From a virus, in IMG/VR virus record IMGVR_UViG_3300024273_001963, positions 1 through 30,290 of that record: a DNA stretch of 30,290 nucleotides. The stretch is one strand, 5' to 3'. A program made the translations under genes and the position numbers. The stretch's first letter is position 1. Every line of letters begins with the position of its first letter. The notes beneath the pieces were generated by a model. That model saw nothing but the letters and a program-made list of their open reading frames with translations. It was not told the DNA's origin and searched no databases. This document shows positions 54-29,024 of this stretch, piece after piece.

Positions 54-269
54 ATGAAAGAAAGAAAGAAAACTAAAAAAACACTTCAGTCAGAATTAGA
101 TGAAGCCACCCAAAGGTATACAAGAGCTATCTATTCTATTATGGAGTTCCGACATGCTCTGGGTGATACAGAAGCAAAATGGTCACATGATGAAGTTGTT
201 GCTAAAATAAAAGAATTGATGAAAGAATCCAATGGGGGTGAATTGGAATCGACTACTCCTAGCGAGTAG
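54..269 (+). CDS. Small hydrophilic helical protein, 71 aa, unknown function
   Basis: ATG start at 54, just after an AT-rich stretch containing TATAAT (45-50); there is no clear Shine-Dalgarno sequence. The product is 71 residues, Lys/Glu rich and probably helical, with a basic N-terminus (MKERKKTKK) and no membrane segment. I do not recognise the family. The odd part is the 3' end: the last 12 codons, including the TAG at 267-269, lie inside the 5' half of the tmRNA-like RNA at 234-300, so the same bases would code for protein and fold into an RNA. The stop codon sits in the 3' strand of that RNA's central stem. Composition up to about residue 58 looks like ordinary phage coding sequence; the tail (NGGELESTTPSE) may be an accident of reading into the RNA. 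Confidence 0.6.
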   Translation: MKERKKTKKTLQSELDEATQRYTRAIYSIMEFRHALGDTEAKWSHDEVVAKIKELMKESNGGELESTTPSE

Positions 270-300
270 CACGCTGGTTCGACTCCAGCCACCTCCACCA
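234..300 (+). ncRNA. Minimal tmRNA/tRNA-like RNA with encoded CCA and alanine identity pair
   Basis: A 67-nt element folds as follows. The 7-bp acceptor stem is 234-240 with 290-296. The T arm has stem 273-277/285-289 and loop TTCGACT at 278-284. A central 5-bp stem is 253-257/265-269 with a 7-nt loop. Discriminator A297 is followed by an encoded CCA at 298-300. The third acceptor pair is G236-T294, the G3-U70 wobble that, with A73, specifies alanylation in tRNA-Ala and tmRNA. There is no D stem. Instead 246-252 reads GAATCGA within TGGAATCGAC, close to the tmRNA 5' signature GGNTTCGAC, and the start GGGGGTGA resembles tmRNA 5' ends. The loop CCTAGCG lacks the T33 of true anticodon loops. The mRNA-like domain and pseudoknots of tmRNA are absent. 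It may be a minimised tmRNA tRNA-like domain, an unusual tRNA, or a captured host relic. Confidence 0.7.
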
Positions 301-22378: not shown

Positions 22379-23038
22379 CTATTTATATGATTTAATCACA
22401 TATACATCAGAATCATTTATCATACACTTACTTACAATTGTAGATAATTCACTCATACTCTTCATATAATGTCTAGCATGAGTCATGTAACAGATATCTT
22501 TATCGGGTTCACTCGACGAATATATGTTCATTTCCTTTCCGACATCCTCCGTTTGCTTCTTGATATTCTCTAAGATAGTAAAGTTATCATCCTTTACCTT
22601 GTCGGAATAGTAATACTGTCCAGTCAAATCATTTGCGCCGAAGTGTAGGGCCACGACAAAGGTTACCTTATCAAATTGATCAGCATTTAGATTATCCCAA
22701 AACCCTTTGTACATATTATTGATTGCTTCGAAGCCGGGACAACAATCTCCTTCTCCCACAACATCACCCATTCTAAGATGTACGACCAATTCATTTTCTT
22801 CTGGAATGGGATAGTTATATTTCTTTGTGTGTTTCTCTATAAGACTTTTGAGAAGAGCATAGTCCCACTCTTTTTCTTTTTCCATAAGATAATCAAACAT
22901 TATGGTGTCTTTAAACTTTGGATTAGATAGTATCTCTGCCCTATCTTTTTCCCATCTCACACCTCTTTGGTGTATCAAATCTGTTACCCTATAAACCGAA
23001 TTATCCGATAATATTTTTACCTCATTTTCCAAACTCAT
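22379..23038 (-). CDS. Fucosyltransferase-like (HxRxGD) GT-B protein, 219 aa
   Basis: ATG at 23038, overlapping the sulfotransferase end by 17 nt. The key motif is ELVVHLRMGDV, with H87-x-R89-x-G91-D92, the GDP-fucose-binding HxRxGD of GT11/GT23/GT65/GT68-type fucosyltransferases. The later segment IYSSSEPDKDICYMTHARHY, then MKSMSELSTIVSKC, recalls the family's 'SeP...D...m..a.h.i.S.S.fS' ending. At 219 residues it is smaller than full fucosyltransferases (about 290 and up), so activity is plausible but unproven. It is the last gene of the glycan run. Its first residues (ENEVKILSD) echo those of the sulfotransferase upstream, a trace of shared sequence at the junctions. Confidence 0.6.
   Translation of the reverse strand: MSLENEVKILSDNSVYRVTDLIHQRGVRWEKDRAEILSNPKFKDTIMFDYLMEKEKEWDYALLKSLIEKHTKKYNYPIPEENELVVHLRMGDVVGEGDCCPGFEAINNMYKGFWDNLNADQFDKVTFVVALHFGANDLTGQYYYSDKVKDDNFTILENIKKQTEDVGKEMNIYSSSEPDKDICYMTHARHYMKSMSELSTIVSKCMINDSDVYVIKSYK
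22380..22387 (-). promoter_or_regulatory. T4-type late promoter
   Basis: TATAAATA followed by GAACC and ATG at 22374 (5-nt gap). It overlaps the last codons of the 22379 gene. Confidence 0.8.
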
Positions 23039-23057
23039 AATTAAACATTTTTATATC
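22991..23057 (-). repeat. Junction repeat, copy B (sulfotransferase end / next gene start)
   Basis: On the minus strand the segment from GATATAAAA through TTTGGAAAATGAG to ATTATCGGATAA matches the junction at 23621-23694 with a few substitutions and two short gaps. Both copies hold the end of a sulfotransferase gene (DIK.FNYEFGK stop) and the start of the following gene. Confidence 0.75.
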
Positions 23058-23648
23058 CTCTGCATATCTTTGTGCAACTATTTCTCTCGTCTCATCTGTA
23101 TAGTATTCCACATAAGGCTTATGGTTTCCTTTATTTCCCCATCCAATATCTTGTTTGGGTGCACCTATGCAATCACACACATAATTAAAGTCCTCTTGTA
23201 GATTCTCTGTCATGCCGATGAAATCCACATCTCCTGCAAATTCTTTCATGGGAAGAAAAGAATTAGCCCATAATTTATCATCGCATTCTTTTATAAATTG
23301 ATCAAATGATTTTCTATAAGGCGAAAAATCTTTAGGATGATATTTTTTCTTCCACATTTTTTCACTTGCACCTTGGTTCATGTGAAAATATATAGAGACA
23401 AGCCTTGCCCAAGGGTTTCGTGTAAAAGTAAATCTAAAGTAAGTATCAAATTTATGCTGCTCAACCAATTTTTCTATCGAGCCGACGCACAAATGATTTG
23501 GGTCGTCGCGAGTGATGGGTCTGACCTCATTCTCAGTAAATTTAATATAGTTTGGATCGATTACAGCAATCCCATTTTTCTCCATTGTAGCACCACCTAT
23601 CTTCTGCTGTCTAATGAATATAAATTTGTACTTATCTGATAAAATCAT
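23022..23648 (-). CDS. Sulfotransferase family protein (copy 2), 208 aa
   Basis: The ATG at 23648 is chosen; the frame runs back to a TTG at 23669 inside the upstream gene, and an ATGAG word before it is out of frame. Residues 9-22 (FIFIRQQKIGGATM) correspond to the 5'-phosphosulfate-binding loop of PAPS sulfotransferases, with K16 kept but the usual Pro-Lys replaced by Gln-Lys. Residues 70-90 (FTFTRNPWARLVSIYFHM) are the 3'-phosphate-binding motif, with R77 and S85. The C-terminus MFNYEFGK is the same as that of the next gene upstream. Carbohydrate sulfotransferases of this type (Sulfotransfer_2) move sulfate from PAPS to sugars or proteins. The loop substitution makes its activity less certain than copy 1. 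Confidence 0.8.
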   Translation of the reverse strand: MILSDKYKFIFIRQQKIGGATMEKNGIAVIDPNYIKFTENEVRPITRDDPNHLCVGSIEKLVEQHKFDTYFRFTFTRNPWARLVSIYFHMNQGASEKMWKKKYHPKDFSPYRKSFDQFIKECDDKLWANSFLPMKEFAGDVDFIGMTENLQEDFNYVCDCIGAPKQDIGWGNKGNHKPYVEYYTDETREIVAQRYAEDIKMFNYEFGK

Positions 23649-23694
23649 TTTTTTATTCTCATTTTCCAAATTCGTAATTGAATAATTTTATATC
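23621..23694 (-). repeat. Junction repeat, copy A (sulfotransferase end / next gene start)
   Basis: Partner of 22991-23057. It contains TTTGGAAAATGAG and TTATCAGATAA at the same relative positions. Similarity continues from the end of one reading frame into the start of the next, so it reflects duplication of DNA rather than of one protein only. Confidence 0.75.
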
Positions 23695-24219
23695 TCTGAA
23701 GTAAAGTTTTCTTATAGCTTTAATAGTCCTATCATTATAATATTCTGTATAATGTTTCTTATTACGGGTAGCATTAAGATGTGGCAGTTCTATATCATCT
23801 GCTTTTATATTTATCAATAGTTGTTTAAAATCCACATCCAAATTTTCATATTTTCCAACAAAATCAACTTTTCTATTCAAGAAATGTGTCAGTCTTTTGA
23901 AATGCACTTGCTGAAGAATTTCATGTACCGGAGTGTCTAATAAAAATTCTTCGAAGTCTCTTCCTTTAATTAGATTCTTCTGCGCCAATTTATCCACATC
24001 ATTTATTCCTCCATCTTTCAAGAACAGATAAGCGCTAAGGAATCTATCCCAAGGATTACGTACAAAGGAGAAGAGATAGTAATTCTGTATTTTTTTCTCT
24101 CGCCAGTAATAATTGGCTGGCTGGTGGCTATGAACATCACTACCAAATGCATTCACGATTGAATTACCTGCGCACTTTGGAATGTGTATAAAAACACACT
24201 TTCTCTTATCATCTACCAT
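23659..24219 (-). CDS. Sulfotransferase family protein (copy 1), 186 aa
   Basis: ATG at 24219, 6 nt after a perfect late promoter that lies in the end of the preceding gene (7-nt gene overlap). CVFIHIPKCAGNSI (residues 8-21) is a textbook PAPS 5'-phosphosulfate loop with K15. LFSFVRNPWDRFLSAYLFL (49-67) is the 3'-phosphate-binding motif with R54 and S62. YYNDRTIKAIRKLYFRDIKL, then FNYEFGK, is the usual end of Golgi-type carbohydrate sulfotransferases (Sulfotransfer_2). The enzyme would transfer sulfate from PAPS to a sugar hydroxyl. It is compact for the family but retains both PAPS motifs. No transmembrane anchor is present, so it would work in the host cytoplasm using host PAPS. Confidence 0.88.
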   Translation of the reverse strand: MVDDKRKCVFIHIPKCAGNSIVNAFGSDVHSHQPANYYWREKKIQNYYLFSFVRNPWDRFLSAYLFLKDGGINDVDKLAQKNLIKGRDFEEFLLDTPVHEILQQVHFKRLTHFLNRKVDFVGKYENLDVDFKQLLINIKADDIELPHLNATRNKKHYTEYYNDRTIKAIRKLYFRDIKLFNYEFGK

Positions 24220-25211
24220 TCAAGATATTTATAATTTTTATAATCAAGTGGCGAGCAGATATTTTTATTTTCAAACAACCTCTTTGATTCATTTGTCTCA
24301 TGGAAGTGATACATATTGAGATCGGTCTTCATATTATAGCCTGTCATAATCGCAGGGCTGTGAATCTTGACTGCATTCTTATAAGTTTTTGTCTTATATA
24401 TGTTCTTGGCTCTCATGGGATAATCTAATGGATCATCGTGGCATATACCTCCCAAAATCATCTTGTCCTTGGCCCAGCAGTTTCTGAAGCCAAAGATATC
24501 TATGTCGGGGTGTTCAATGATCATATCTCTTAATGTGCCATGTGGCCATTCAAGATATTCATCGAAATCACAGAATAACATATAATCATCATTGAATAGA
24601 TGAAAAGCATGGTTTATCTGCGGTGGCTGTGCATGATGTCCATACTTATAGTGTGAATCTTTTGGTGGTTTTTGCAATAAAGGGAAATTCACATAACGAA
24701 AATCCCAATTAATCACCGTGACATCATCTCTATCAATGATGTCTTTCTGCGCATCATTCAACGTACCATTATAATAAACATAAAAATTATCTACACCCTG
24801 CCTCTTATAATAATCATACCATCTTCCATATTCTTCAATGTCATATTTAAATAAAGTCGCTACGGAAAATAATTTTTTCTCTTCTCTGTGAGGAACCAAT
24901 TGAAATGAGGAAGTTATTTCTTTCACCTTGATGGCGACATCGTAAACATCTTGGGCCTTGCCGGGTATCTCATACTTTGTTATCCAAGAAGGTTCGCCAT
25001 TCTCTGTTTCTGTTCGCCAATTTAAGGATATTTTATTTTCAAACAATTTAACACACGCGCCATTTACTCTTATCTGCCAGCTTTCTAGCCTTGGTGTGGG
25101 CTTGTAATAAAGTGGCTTTACTACACACAGCAGATTATCTTTGATGAAAACATCAAAGTATAAGAGGTCTTCATCATCTATGTAACAAGAGTGGACGGGA
25201 TGAAATTTCAT
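24213..25211 (-). CDS. GT92 family glycosyltransferase, 332 aa
   Basis: The N-terminal about 110 residues form a beta-rich extra domain (DVFIKDNLLCVVKPLYYKP and WQIRVNGACVKLFENK). The GT92 (DUF23) domain starts at about 113: LFSVATLFKYDIEEYGRW, then YDYYKRQGVDNFYVYYNG. The metal-binding DYMLFCDFDEYLEW has D215-x-D217. HSPAIMTGYNM and MYHFHETNES complete the usual layout, with the late His probably a metal ligand. GT92 enzymes in animals and plants include galactosyltransferases that act on fucose or on N-glycan and pectic chains; the bacterial and phage members are little studied. It shares the domain with the first half of the 3801-5300 protein. The start codon overlaps the methyltransferase stop by 1 nt. 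Confidence 0.88.
   Translation of the reverse strand: MKFHPVHSCYIDDEDLLYFDVFIKDNLLCVVKPLYYKPTPRLESWQIRVNGACVKLFENKISLNWRTETENGEPSWITKYEIPGKAQDVYDVAIKVKEITSSFQLVPHREEKKLFSVATLFKYDIEEYGRWYDYYKRQGVDNFYVYYNGTLNDAQKDIIDRDDVTVINWDFRYVNFPLLQKPPKDSHYKYGHHAQPPQINHAFHLFNDDYMLFCDFDEYLEWPHGTLRDMIIEHPDIDIFGFRNCWAKDKMILGGICHDDPLDYPMRAKNIYKTKTYKNAVKIHSPAIMTGYNMKTDLNMYHFHETNESKRLFENKNICSPLDYKNYKYLEW
24226..24233 (-). promoter_or_regulatory. T4-type late promoter inside the GT92 gene
   Basis: Perfect TATAAATA followed by TCTTGA and the ATG at 24219 (6-nt gap). It would restart transcription for the two sulfotransferases and the fucosyltransferase-like gene. Confidence 0.65.
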
Positions 25212-26041
25212 TATTTAATACTAAGTAAGTAAGCAGTTTGATACATGCCGTGATATTTAGGAATAATTTCGATGATGTTGAAAATTTTATTAAGTCTAGA
25301 GAGAATAAATTCATTTGAATACCACACACCAGTTAGCCATGGCCCATCATTGAATGTTAATTTTCCAAAAGGGTCTTTTAAATCTTTAATGAGTCTCAGC
25401 GCCTTCAAAGGACCTGTATATTTTTTATTACTATTTTCATCAGTCTCTTCAGGGTTCAATCTTTTGACTTCATCGAGCGCATATTGATCATTAATCGATA
25501 TGATAGCCAATCCTCTGTCTTTATTCATTACTCGTGCTAATTCTAGAAGCCATGCATCCGCCAGTTCGCCGATATGAGTAAACACAGATTCTGCAAAGAT
25601 AAAATTAAGAGAATCATCTCGGAATGGTAGATGTGGCAAAGTAGTATTCATAAAGAAATTCAGATTACTAGGTAAATTTTGTTGGGCCCAAGCGATGGCA
25701 GGGCCATCTATATCCACACCCCAAACGTCCACACCTCTCGATGCTTCGGGTTCAAACCATCGAATCAATCTACCCGAAGAGCAACCAAATTCCATAATCT
25801 TGTCACCTTCCTTTAATTCTCCAAAATGTTTTTCAAAGGATTTTCTATATACATCGGCATTTATTGATCCACCTTCCATATAGTGTTCATCGTGATCTAA
25901 ATTATACCAATGTCTCATTCTACCATTTTGTGGACATATAGAATTTGATTCTTTTTCATTTTCTGAATTAAAAGATATATGATTTATATCACCAATATCA
26001 TTTATAAAGATACCAGCTGTTGATGTAGATAATTCACCCAT
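25211..26041 (-). CDS. SAM-dependent methyltransferase, class I, 276 aa
   Basis: A strong motif I is present, KIMEFGCSSGRLIRWF (residues 81-96), with the acidic strand-2 residue in VWGVDIDGPAIAWAQ (D110/D112), motif II-like LPFRDDSLNFIFAESVF (about 136-152) and the post-motif strand RGLAIISIND. This is the Methyltransf_11/25 pattern. A short N-terminal extension (1-75) holds RMRHWYNLDHDEHYMEGGS, which probably forms the substrate lid. Placed between a fucosyltransferase-like and a GT92 gene with overlapping ends, O-methylation of a sugar is the likeliest job. It is only distantly like the methyltransferase at 2185. Confidence 0.85.
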   Translation of the reverse strand: MGELSTSTAGIFINDIGDINHISFNSENEKESNSICPQNGRMRHWYNLDHDEHYMEGGSINADVYRKSFEKHFGELKEGDKIMEFGCSSGRLIRWFEPEASRGVDVWGVDIDGPAIAWAQQNLPSNLNFFMNTTLPHLPFRDDSLNFIFAESVFTHIGELADAWLLELARVMNKDRGLAIISINDQYALDEVKRLNPEETDENSNKKYTGPLKALRLIKDLKDPFGKLTFNDGPWLTGVWYSNEFILSRLNKIFNIIEIIPKYHGMYQTAYLLSIK

Positions 26042-27041
26042 TTAATTTTTTATTTAATTTTTCTATTCTCTGTGTGGACTCTTCCACCATATCATTTCCT
26101 ATATTTTTTAATATTTTATTTCCTTGTATTAAATTTTCTATAACAATCTGAGAATTATCTTTCTGTACACTGTCATTTATATAGGTTTTAACATCATCAA
26201 TACCGAATATATTTATACCTTTTAATCCTAATTTATGAAACTTGTGATCTGGTGGGAAATTAAAGATAGGTACATTCAATGAGAACACTGCGTCGAATAT
26301 CTTCTCTGTGATATAATTAGGCGCAAGGGTATTCTCCATAGAAAGAAGATACCGCGAACTCATACAGGATTTAATTTTATGATAGTGCCATGATCTATTA
26401 TCTCTTGCGTTTGAAACACATGTCTTACCAGACTGTTTCGACCATCCTTTTCCATCAAGGCGATTTTCTTTATCCTCTCCTATCTCTTCTGCTATCTTAG
26501 ATCTACGAACCATATTACATTCATCGAATATCTTTGATACCTTTTTTTCGAATCTCCCATTTGCTTTACCCACGAGAGCCTGGATATTTATGGGTCTCTT
26601 TTTCCATATATCAACGAGTTCTTTATCTGTCTTGCTCGACCACTGCATCGCCATAGTGATATATTTTGCCACAATGTCTGGGTGATGAGTGAGATAATAT
26701 GGTATTGTGTCGAATTCAAAGACATCACTATTAAAATGATTCAACTGTGTTATCTTATGACCGTTCCATTCAACCACATTCTCTTTTAATTTCTCTGGTG
26801 TGACCACATTCGAATATAAATCCCATATAGGTTCATCCGAAAAAGAATAGAGCTGGGCATTAATCTTTTGTTTACTTTGAAGGAAATCGTGTTGGTGATA
26901 GAACGGATCGGTTAATAGGATGACCTCTGCATCGTCAAGATCTTCAACTACATTAAAAATTCTCTCAATTCTCCACCTGTAATTAGATGAATTATAAATG
27001 GATGCCTTCTCTGTTACACTCAAGAATAATTTTTTCTTCAT
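26034..27041 (-). CDS. GT10 family alpha-1,3-fucosyltransferase-like protein, 335 aa
   Basis: The diagnostic segment is RYLLSMENTLAPNYITEKIF, then DAVFSLNVPIF (residues 230-260). It matches the GDP-fucose-binding motif 'fENs...dYvTEK...al..g.vPV' of GT10 enzymes, with E236, N237, Y243, T245, E246 and K247 at the expected places. The N-terminal part supplies the acceptor domain, with DDAEVILLTDPFYHQH and the YSFSDEPIWDLY stretch. GT10 enzymes transfer fucose from GDP-fucose in alpha-1,3/4 linkage. The length is typical of bacterial members. The C-terminal helix (MVEESTQRIEKLNKKLNG) is amphipathic and Lys-rich, as in Helicobacter enzymes that associate with membranes. It overlaps its neighbours by 4 and 8 nt. 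Confidence 0.82.
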   Translation of the reverse strand: MKKKLFLSVTEKASIYNSSNYRWRIERIFNVVEDLDDAEVILLTDPFYHQHDFLQSKQKINAQLYSFSDEPIWDLYSNVVTPEKLKENVVEWNGHKITQLNHFNSDVFEFDTIPYYLTHHPDIVAKYITMAMQWSSKTDKELVDIWKKRPINIQALVGKANGRFEKKVSKIFDECNMVRRSKIAEEIGEDKENRLDGKGWSKQSGKTCVSNARDNRSWHYHKIKSCMSSRYLLSMENTLAPNYITEKIFDAVFSLNVPIFNFPPDHKFHKLGLKGINIFGIDDVKTYINDSVQKDNSQIVIENLIQGNKILKNIGNDMVEESTQRIEKLNKKLNG

Positions 27042-28060
27042 CCTGTGATATATGCAGTATATAATTGATGTGCGGGTTCTTCAACTATTTCATTTGCTAT
27101 TTTAAATAAATTTTCTCTCATCTGTTTAGATTTTTTTAGATATGGCGCTAATACTTTATTCAGATTATTAAGGTCTTTACTTTTTATTATAATACAGTTA
27201 TCTTTTAGAACCGACGAACGTGTTGGGTAAAGTTCGGGCAGATTATCAATGAAGACAGGGATCGATCCTGCATTGATAGCCTCCCATAAGCGAATACTGT
27301 TATGACCTGTTCCTGTTGGACATAGACAGAAATGTGAGTCCAACAGTTGTTTTATATATGATCTATCCACAAAAGTTTTCCCCTTTGTTTCATTCAATTC
27401 AAAGCCATCCTTTCGAAACTTACTATAATACCAACCATCAATAGTCTTTATATTATTTTCTACTTTGGCTATCTTCGACCGAACATCATCGATATACATA
27501 TCACTATCAACACAACCAGAAAAACAAAATAAATTTTTTCTTTTCTTAAAATATTTTTTTTCTTTCAGAGGCTTTTCAATCTGAATAGGGTGAAGATAAT
27601 AAGGCTTCACATTATGTTTTCTCTTGAAAGTATTCTCCCATGCTTTCGAATAAAATAAATTATTCTCATTATAATTTCCTACACCGAGAGAGCGATCACA
27701 TAGATGGGGCCACAATACTGTATCAACTCTGAACTTACTAAAGCATCTTTCGTAAATAAAAGGTGATGTAATTGCCACATGCTGATGAACAGTTAATACC
27801 TTATTGTATGTACCCTTCATCTCTTTCAGTTGAGCTTGTATTTTCTTTAATTCTACCAGAAGAGCGCAGTATGTCTGATAAGATTTTTTACAATCTCTGG
27901 CACCGACGTGTTGCATATAGGAATCAATGTATTGTGCCCAAGGGAATCCGATATAAACATTAGGGCTATCAACAAACCTATCGATTTCCTTCATGTGTTG
28001 TAGTGCCTTCCATTCTGTGGAATTTGGCTTTTGGAAATATTCGTCAATTGATATTATCAT
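27038..28060 (-). CDS. Exostosin-like glycosyltransferase (GT47 type), 340 aa
   Basis: The diagnostic C-terminal motif SHFCLCPTGTGHNSIRLWEA (residues 242-261), then INAGSIPVFIDN, is the exostosin 'skFcLcP.G.g..S.Rl.EAi..GciPVii' pattern, with E260 as the likely nucleotide-sugar ligand. Upstream, NLFCFSGCVDSD (176-187) opens the second Rossmann domain. HVAITSPFIYERC and VDTVLWPHLCD resemble the N-terminal half. Exostosins polymerise heparan-type chains in animals; plant GT47 enzymes are galactosyl-, xylosyl- and arabinosyltransferases. The phage protein has only one GT domain and no anchor. It is the first gene of the overlapping run, 13 nt after a late promoter, and overlaps the next gene by 4 nt (ATGA). 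Confidence 0.82.
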   Translation of the reverse strand: MIISIDEYFQKPNSTEWKALQHMKEIDRFVDSPNVYIGFPWAQYIDSYMQHVGARDCKKSYQTYCALLVELKKIQAQLKEMKGTYNKVLTVHQHVAITSPFIYERCFSKFRVDTVLWPHLCDRSLGVGNYNENNLFYSKAWENTFKRKHNVKPYYLHPIQIEKPLKEKKYFKKRKNLFCFSGCVDSDMYIDDVRSKIAKVENNIKTIDGWYYSKFRKDGFELNETKGKTFVDRSYIKQLLDSHFCLCPTGTGHNSIRLWEAINAGSIPVFIDNLPELYPTRSSVLKDNCIIIKSKDLNNLNKVLAPYLKKSKQMRENLFKIANEIVEEPAHQLYTAYITG

Positions 28061-28073
28061 AATCTGGAATATT

Positions 28074-28081
28074 TATTTATA
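28074..28081 (-). promoter_or_regulatory. T4-type late promoter heading the glycan operon
   Basis: Perfect TATAAATA with a 13-nt gap to the ATG at 28060. Seven genes follow in the same direction (GT47 to the fucosyltransferase-like gene); most of their ends overlap. Confidence 0.75.
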
Positions 28082-28088
28082 TATTCTT

Positions 28089-29024
28089 TTACATATATAA
28101 TCCGCCAAAGATAGTATCGCTAAATAGTTTCGTTGGAATATATTTATGCGGCTTTATCATTAATTCTGTATTGATATATTTGGAAATCATATTTTCAGTA
28201 TTCTTTTCTACCTCAGCAGGATTAGGTGACCGACCATGCATCGCGATAAGTGTTGTATCTATCTCTGCATGAGAAAAAGAATGAGCCTTATCTCTTGAAT
28301 TCAGATGTTTTGTGACAGCTGTCAAATGTATACCCCAATGTCTATCGGGAAATTTCACATCTTGAATAGGAAGTTCATATTTATTATATATTGGCGTTTC
28401 CATTGGATCATTGTGTCTTAAATATCTTTCATTACAAATATGATGAACGATATACTTGCTCATTTTTCCACCTATCTTTCTATAATCTCCAGGTTGTATC
28501 TTATCCAGAATCCGAGCGCTTGCCACGAAAGGTGCTATCCATGTTTTCTCATGAGGCTTTTCACTAATGAAATTTGAATAATTATGGTATGGATAAAAAG
28601 TAATATCATCTGCACATTTGTGTTCATTTATCTCATTATTATTTTGAATCTCATCAAGATCGCTAAATCTTATCAGATCATCAGGTTGAGTAATATTGAG
28701 TATATGTTCTTTAAAGATTGAACGATGATAATGTTCTACTTCCCATCTATTGGTTTTAACAAAGATGGATTTACCCGTGCTTACTGTCGATCTAAAGTCG
28801 CCACGGGTTGCCTTGGGTAATTGCACCTTAAAATAGATAATCCTATCAAGATATTTTTCAAATAGATGTTTATATCTTTCGAAGTAATATGGCTTTTCCA
28901 TGCCACTGTATGTTTTATCACCTTCACATATAACGACATAATCAAACACCTCAAGGTCGTGTTTGATTCTTAATTCCAATAACCATATTTCATTATTGAA
29001 TAAAAGGCAATTATACTTTTTCAT
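28089..29024 (-). CDS. GT17 family glycosyltransferase, 311 aa
   Basis: The whole GT17 layout is visible. CLLFNNEIWLLELRIKHDLE, then VFDYVVICEGDKTYSG (residues 27-41, with E34), and KPYYFERYKHLF match the N-terminal signature. DDLIRFSDLDEI (115-126) carries the DxD (D122-x-D124). WGIHLTAVTKHLNSRDKAHS, then FSHAEI, matches the C-terminal 'gwHlS...i..K..SfsH.E' motif. GT17 is the family of the bisecting beta-1,4-N-acetylglucosaminyltransferase of mammals; many bacterial and viral members exist without known acceptors. The ATG overlaps the ligase stop (TAATG), and the gene ends 29 nt before the start of the GT47 gene, just before that gene's promoter box. Confidence 0.88.
   Translation of the reverse strand: MKKYNCLLFNNEIWLLELRIKHDLEVFDYVVICEGDKTYSGMEKPYYFERYKHLFEKYLDRIIYFKVQLPKATRGDFRSTVSTGKSIFVKTNRWEVEHYHRSIFKEHILNITQPDDLIRFSDLDEIQNNNEINEHKCADDITFYPYHNYSNFISEKPHEKTWIAPFVASARILDKIQPGDYRKIGGKMSKYIVHHICNERYLRHNDPMETPIYNKYELPIQDVKFPDRHWGIHLTAVTKHLNSRDKAHSFSHAEIDTTLIAMHGRSPNPAEVEKNTENMISKYINTELMIKPHKYIPTKLFSDTIFGGLYM

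Follow-up and report, generated by a model that had tools for sequence, protein, structure and literature searches.

Organization of the locus

The window analysed here, a 30,290-nt stretch of viral DNA, is a fragment of a T4-like myovirus that encodes baseplate wedge, head-closure and head-tail adaptor proteins. The best baseplate matches include the Pelagibacter phages Mosig and HTVC008M, at ~32% identity. Sulfotransferase, glycosyltransferase-like and methyltransferase-like genes lie beside the structural genes on the minus strand (22382-29024).

On the plus strand, a coding ORF of 71 aa (54-269) runs in frame into a 67-nt TLD-only tmRNA gene (234-300), and an ORF of 239 aa (309-1028) begins 8 nt past the CCA end of the RNA. 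The downstream ORF is conserved in the viral contig L013. Searches of Pfam and PHROG found no family for either ORF. In two near relatives of the window (L006 and L013), the RNA is located at the same place, near tRNA genes.

The RNA gene reads GGGGGTG-AATTGGAATCGA-CTACTC-CTAGC-GAGTAG-CAC-GCTGG-TTCGACT-CCAGC-CACCTCC-A-CCA. Its acceptor stem has 7 bp, formed by GGGGGTG (234-240) and CACCTCC (290-296), and contains the pair G236-U294, which corresponds to G3-U70, the alanine identity pair. The 3' strand is followed by the discriminator A297 (A73) and an encoded CCA (298-300). The segment GGAATCGAC (245-253) is of the tmRNA type and replaces the D arm, its TCGAC being invariant across the aligned relatives. 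The T arm (273-289) has 5 bp and the loop TTCGACT, with both its pairing and its double changes visible in the alignment.

Between the two halves of the TLD, the sole content is a 17-nt P2 hairpin (253-269), which stands in place of the long P2, the pseudoknots and the mRNA-like domain. Its stem, CTACTC/GAGTAG with the 5-nt loop CTAGC, counts 6 bp (253-258/264-269) instead of the five given by an earlier sequence-only reading of this DNA. Neither the sequence of the window RNA nor its Rfam match revealed pseudoknots or an mRNA-like domain with a resume codon and a tag frame.

Identification of the RNA

The Rfam tmRNA model RF00023 matched the RNA end to end with 53.7 bits (gathering score 47, E 1.2e-18). 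The match covers the model ends 1-374, with few bases standing for 314 model positions. We also built a covariance model from 18 relatives, all short RNAs of other viruses, with the window lineage left out. This model scored the window RNA at 77.6 bits (E ~1e-15), and the runner-up site in the window reached 14.7 bits. ARAGORN, which the sequence-only reading had suggested alongside the Rfam tmRNA and tRNA models, made no call for 234-300, and the RNA did not qualify as a tRNA under RF00005.

The minimum-energy fold computed for the RNA retains the acceptor stem only, and the canonical fold lies ~2 kcal/mol higher; the canonical structure is therefore supported by covariation rather than by single-sequence folding. 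The RNA carries the parts that define a tmRNA, namely a 7-bp acceptor stem with G3-U70, A73 and CCA, a GG..TCGAC segment in the D position and a T arm. In addition, it shows the traits of the type known from mycobacteriophage DS6A: standard gene order, a TLD with a short P2, and no tag frame. Taken together, these data confirm that 234-300 (+) is a TLD-only tmRNA. The class proposed by the sequence-only reading thus held, along with the identity pair, the T arm, the TCGAC segment and the 3' end; that reading had overlooked the published precedents (phage DS6A and Mallomonadaceae plastids) and the coding ORF that overlaps the 5' half of the RNA.

Distribution among viruses

To describe the family, we searched for the acceptor ends, TCGAC and the T arm with a pattern that permits 8-38 nt from TCGAC to the T arm. 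On 2.9 million viral contigs (IMG/VR), this pattern found at least 119 stretches; a stricter, earlier form had found 20. On 84,980 prokaryote genomes it found 11, three of which look false. Another of the 11, from a Prochlorococcus single-cell assembly, lies on a contig that equals an IMG/VR viral record in size and match position (L203, L246).

A size-limited viral scan, listed in full, gave 65 stretches of up to ~73 nt. Within this small class, the acceptor stem is perfect in 64 viral loci (37 distinct sequences, the window counted). Small-class members with a perfect stem and a P2 were absent from the pattern-scan matches in the 84,980 prokaryote genomes. Wider-gap scans added members of up to 140 nt. 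In total, we collected at least 141 distinct sequences that combine a 7-bp acceptor stem, a 5-bp T stem and a P2 of 4 bp or more; a few come from the prokaryote genome collection, and the distinct viral relatives number about 140. Lengths range from 62 to 140 nt, and the distribution peaks at 66-67 nt and again at 78-83 nt. One 168-nt entry among the 141 is a double match spanning adjacent genes. A further class of short tmRNA-like genes, of 103-140 nt, has a bigger P2 region (L286, L291, L294, L287, L295, L288, L310 and others).

Standard tools overlook or miscall such genes, and automated annotation gives the TLD-only class wrong names. For example, ARAGORN named one TLD-only RNA (L005, 8486-8576, minus strand) tRNA-Glu. 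A 69-nt gene of Pantoea phage Phynn (MN038175.1, 13462-13530; L259), labelled tRNA-Ser, scored 36.8 bits with the TLD model and has no TCGAC; it could be an unusual tRNA or a TLD that has diverged. When 27 short RNAs were compared with isolated phages by blastn, a search that is insensitive for RNAs this short and diverse, the matches inspected were full or permuted tmRNAs or were not TLD-only.

These results suggest that the TLD-only tmRNA, with about 140 distinct viral examples, is less an isolated curiosity than a means by which viruses repeatedly target ribosome rescue. Its smallest class was seen only in viral contigs within the collections searched. The family also provides many natural sequences for asking whether phages suppress, borrow or bypass trans-translation.

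Conservation of the structure and of G3-U70

We aligned 22 short members and found 99.2% of the cells paired, where shuffles gave 79% and slid controls 48-59%. The covariation score was 0.54 versus 0.14. P2 is paired in 99% of its cells with double changes at 5 of 6 pairs, and the T arm in 100% with double changes at 3 of 5 pairs. The same held in a set of 108 sequences in whose choice P2 had played no part: P2 pairs 1-4 form in 106-107 of them. Pair 1 is nearly invariant; for pairs 2-4, shuffling lowers the count to 44-56. For the 80-nt class, pairs were counted at anchored positions by script, since MAFFT misaligned the 5' ends. The covariation, together with the covariance-model match, rules out a chance occurrence.

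Pair 3-70 is G-U in all 98 distinct sequences examined under a matching pattern that left both positions free; some of the loci were originally retrieved by a pattern in which this pair was set. Acceptor pairs 4-7 show compensatory variation while G3-U70 stays invariant. Thus, the compensatory stem changes that the sequence-only reading had proposed to look for in related phages were found, with G3-U70 kept. Within the window lineage, identity is 91-94% in the RNA and 85-90% in the flanks; as the flanks are coding, this difference carries little information.

An upstream gene that runs into the RNA

The stop codon of the upstream ORF (TAG, 267-269) is located inside the 3' strand of P2. Upstream of the RNA, the ORF differs from its counterparts in L006 and L013 at 14 and 15 third codon positions, and at 6 and 3 first and second positions. 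The concentration of differences at third positions indicates that the ORF is coding; this bias is gone within the RNA part. With no stop ahead of the RNA and the TAG inside P2, an mRNA cut by RNase P at 233/234 would retain exactly 60 codons of this ORF and no stop.

The same overlap was found in L153 and L177, where an unrelated conserved protein shows 51% identity across the 109 residues that lead up to the RNA. In-frame ORFs entering the 5' half of the RNA without a prior stop were seen in the window, L006, L013, L153, L177, L016 and L183. Among 102 distinct flanks, 20 have an ORF of 55 or more codons that extends across the 5' end of the TLD; for tRNAs of the same contigs the figure is 5 of 92 (Fisher p ~0.005, with lineages that are not independent and some ORFs perhaps spurious).

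That RNase P maturation might create nonstop mRNAs from upstream ORFs is, on this sequence arrangement, a lead rather than a finding. In E. coli, the nonstop arfA mRNA ties its output to the state of trans-translation, and the phage gene upstream of the TLD-only RNA might conceivably behave in a like way. A broader scheme would be that a widespread viral class of tag-less, alanine-charged tmRNAs captures ribosomes stalled by infection, and that in several lineages maturation makes the upstream gene stop-less, coupling its output to trans-translation. We regard this combined scheme as a long shot.

Proposed role of the RNA

We infer that the window RNA is expressed, charged, bound by SmpB and beneficial to the phage. 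On balance, our analysis favours, with some reserve, phage TLD-only tmRNAs as alanylatable competitors that draw SmpB and stalled ribosomes away from host tmRNA. Host tRNA-processing enzymes would excise the RNA from the phage transcript, host AlaRS would charge it with alanine via G3-U70, and host SmpB and EF-Tu would bind the charged form. The RNA could then contend with host tmRNA both for SmpB and for ribosomes that have stalled. Since it has no resume codon or tag frame, tagging would be prevented, and host trans-translation might be damped or redirected during infection. The sequence-only reading had listed competition with host tmRNA and an SmpB decoy among several roles; this is the best-supported one, given the reported inhibition of E. 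coli tmRNA by a similar phage RNA, and the rescue RNA adding a single alanine, also on that list, is a serious rival.

The partner would have to be host SmpB, since none of the 49 TLD-only viral contigs of at least 25 kb encodes SmpB. A full-length tmRNA above threshold accompanies the short RNA in one of the 49 (L104) and in none of the other 48; most of these contigs are fragments, so neither absence is proof. The exception is a 123-kb viral contig with a 392-nt full-length tmRNA, an 82-nt TLD-only RNA and ~42 tRNA matches. Among prokaryote genomes with a longer TLD-only gene, a full-length tmRNA was also present in all six checked. Two cyanobacterial contigs (L241, L243) have 84-nt TLD-only genes near genes of an ordinary cellular kind, for a TPR protein, an NMT1-like protein and RPE65, and these cyanobacteria have a full-length tmRNA as well.

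The invariance of G3-U70 suggests that the charged form matters, for entry into the ribosome with EF-Tu and for acceptance of the peptide. Such strict conservation is unexplained by a simple titration that is independent of charging, and points to an active, alanylated role. This is compatible with a potent competitor and also with tag-less rescue, in which the alanyl-TLD with host SmpB takes the stalled peptide and the ribosome is recycled untagged, as is presumed for mitochondria. Tag-less rescue would free ribosomes from cut mRNAs and spare phage proteins from tagging. We consider it a possible but distinctly less probable role. In its favour, the invariant G3-U70, A73 and CCA imply that charging matters, and mitochondrial tmRNAs without a tag frame co-occur with a targeted SmpB (PMC11915505). 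However, a similar RNA in E. coli is described in summary as inhibiting tmRNA and not replacing it, and the checked prokaryote genomes with TLD-only genes have tmRNA already. Moreover, we know of no step by which the peptide would be released without the stop codon of the tag.

A decoy for another ligand (AlaRS, EF-Tu, or a tmRNA- or tRNA-cleaving nuclease or defence enzyme of the host), or a role outside trans-translation, appears improbable. Many TLD-only members sit in contigs bearing tRNA genes, as expected if they replaced cleaved host RNAs. However, the TCGAC and T-loop signature is the part of the TLD recognised by SmpB; AlaRS and EF-Tu do not need it, and a tRNA-Ala would suffice as a decoy for either.

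Two further explanations are very improbable. A relic of captured host ssrA ends, as also raised by the sequence-only reading, or their chance fusion has a parallel in the integration-derived ssrA fragments that phages carry (literature cited in PMC9004378), but it is ruled out by fully paired, covarying stems across lineages, with the same architecture and G3-U70 in ~140 distinct viral sequences, and the T4-like context of the window has no sign of ssrA integration. A degenerate or armless tRNA would agree with the loop CCUAGCG, readable as containing the anticodon UAG, and with the tRNA-Glu label that ARAGORN gives to some relatives, but it conflicts with the missing D arm, the silence of ARAGORN and RF00005 on the window, an RF00023 match spanning 1-374, and P2 loops of 2-9 nt in the relatives that share no anticodon.

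Comparison with known tmRNAs

Phage-borne tmRNAs are known from Melnitz (PMC9004378), and we found a full permuted tmRNA in Mosig and in HTVC008M, isolated T4-like relatives of the window phage; S-CAM1 and PegLeg are also among the phages with full-length or permuted tmRNAs. In all of these the ssrA gene is complete with its tag region, whereas the window RNA has none.

Mitochondrial tmRNAs without an mRNA-like region have been described in jakobids and oomycetes (RF02544; Jacob 2004 and Hafez 2013, as cited in PMC11915505). They lack the tag frame, co-occur with a mitochondrion-targeted SmpB and are thought to be useful for incomplete mRNAs (PMC11915505). With the window RNA they share the alanine TLD, the absence of a tag frame and a presumed SmpB partner. 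However, they are usually permuted and in two pieces, whereas the window gene is one piece in standard order. A permuted two-piece tmRNA (RF04321, RF01849-51) was rejected for the window, where the 5' half precedes the 3' half, and RF04321 gave no match above cut-off in the related TLD-only contigs tested. Closer in size are the tmRNAs of Mallomonadaceae plastids, which are CDS-less and ~65 bp long (PMC11915505). By description, they have size and loss of the tag region in common with the window RNA, although they are organellar and not viral.

The closest known case is the TLD-only tmRNA of mycobacteriophage DS6A (tmRNA Website 11587; PMC4131195 and PMC11915505, citing Mao et al. 2009). In a curated database of 97,179 tmRNA sequences, nine standard-order genes have no tag frame, and the phage case named is DS6A (PMC11915505). 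A DS6A-type molecule is summarised as inhibiting endogenous tmRNA in E. coli (PMC11915505), strongly and with or without chargeability, perhaps by titration of SmpB (PMC4131195). The likeness to the window RNA is by description only, and DS6A infects mycobacteria whereas the window phage is a marine T4-like myovirus. This kind of RNA was therefore already known from DS6A; new here are the breadth of the class, the invariance of G3-U70 and an upstream coding gene that has no stop before the RNA.
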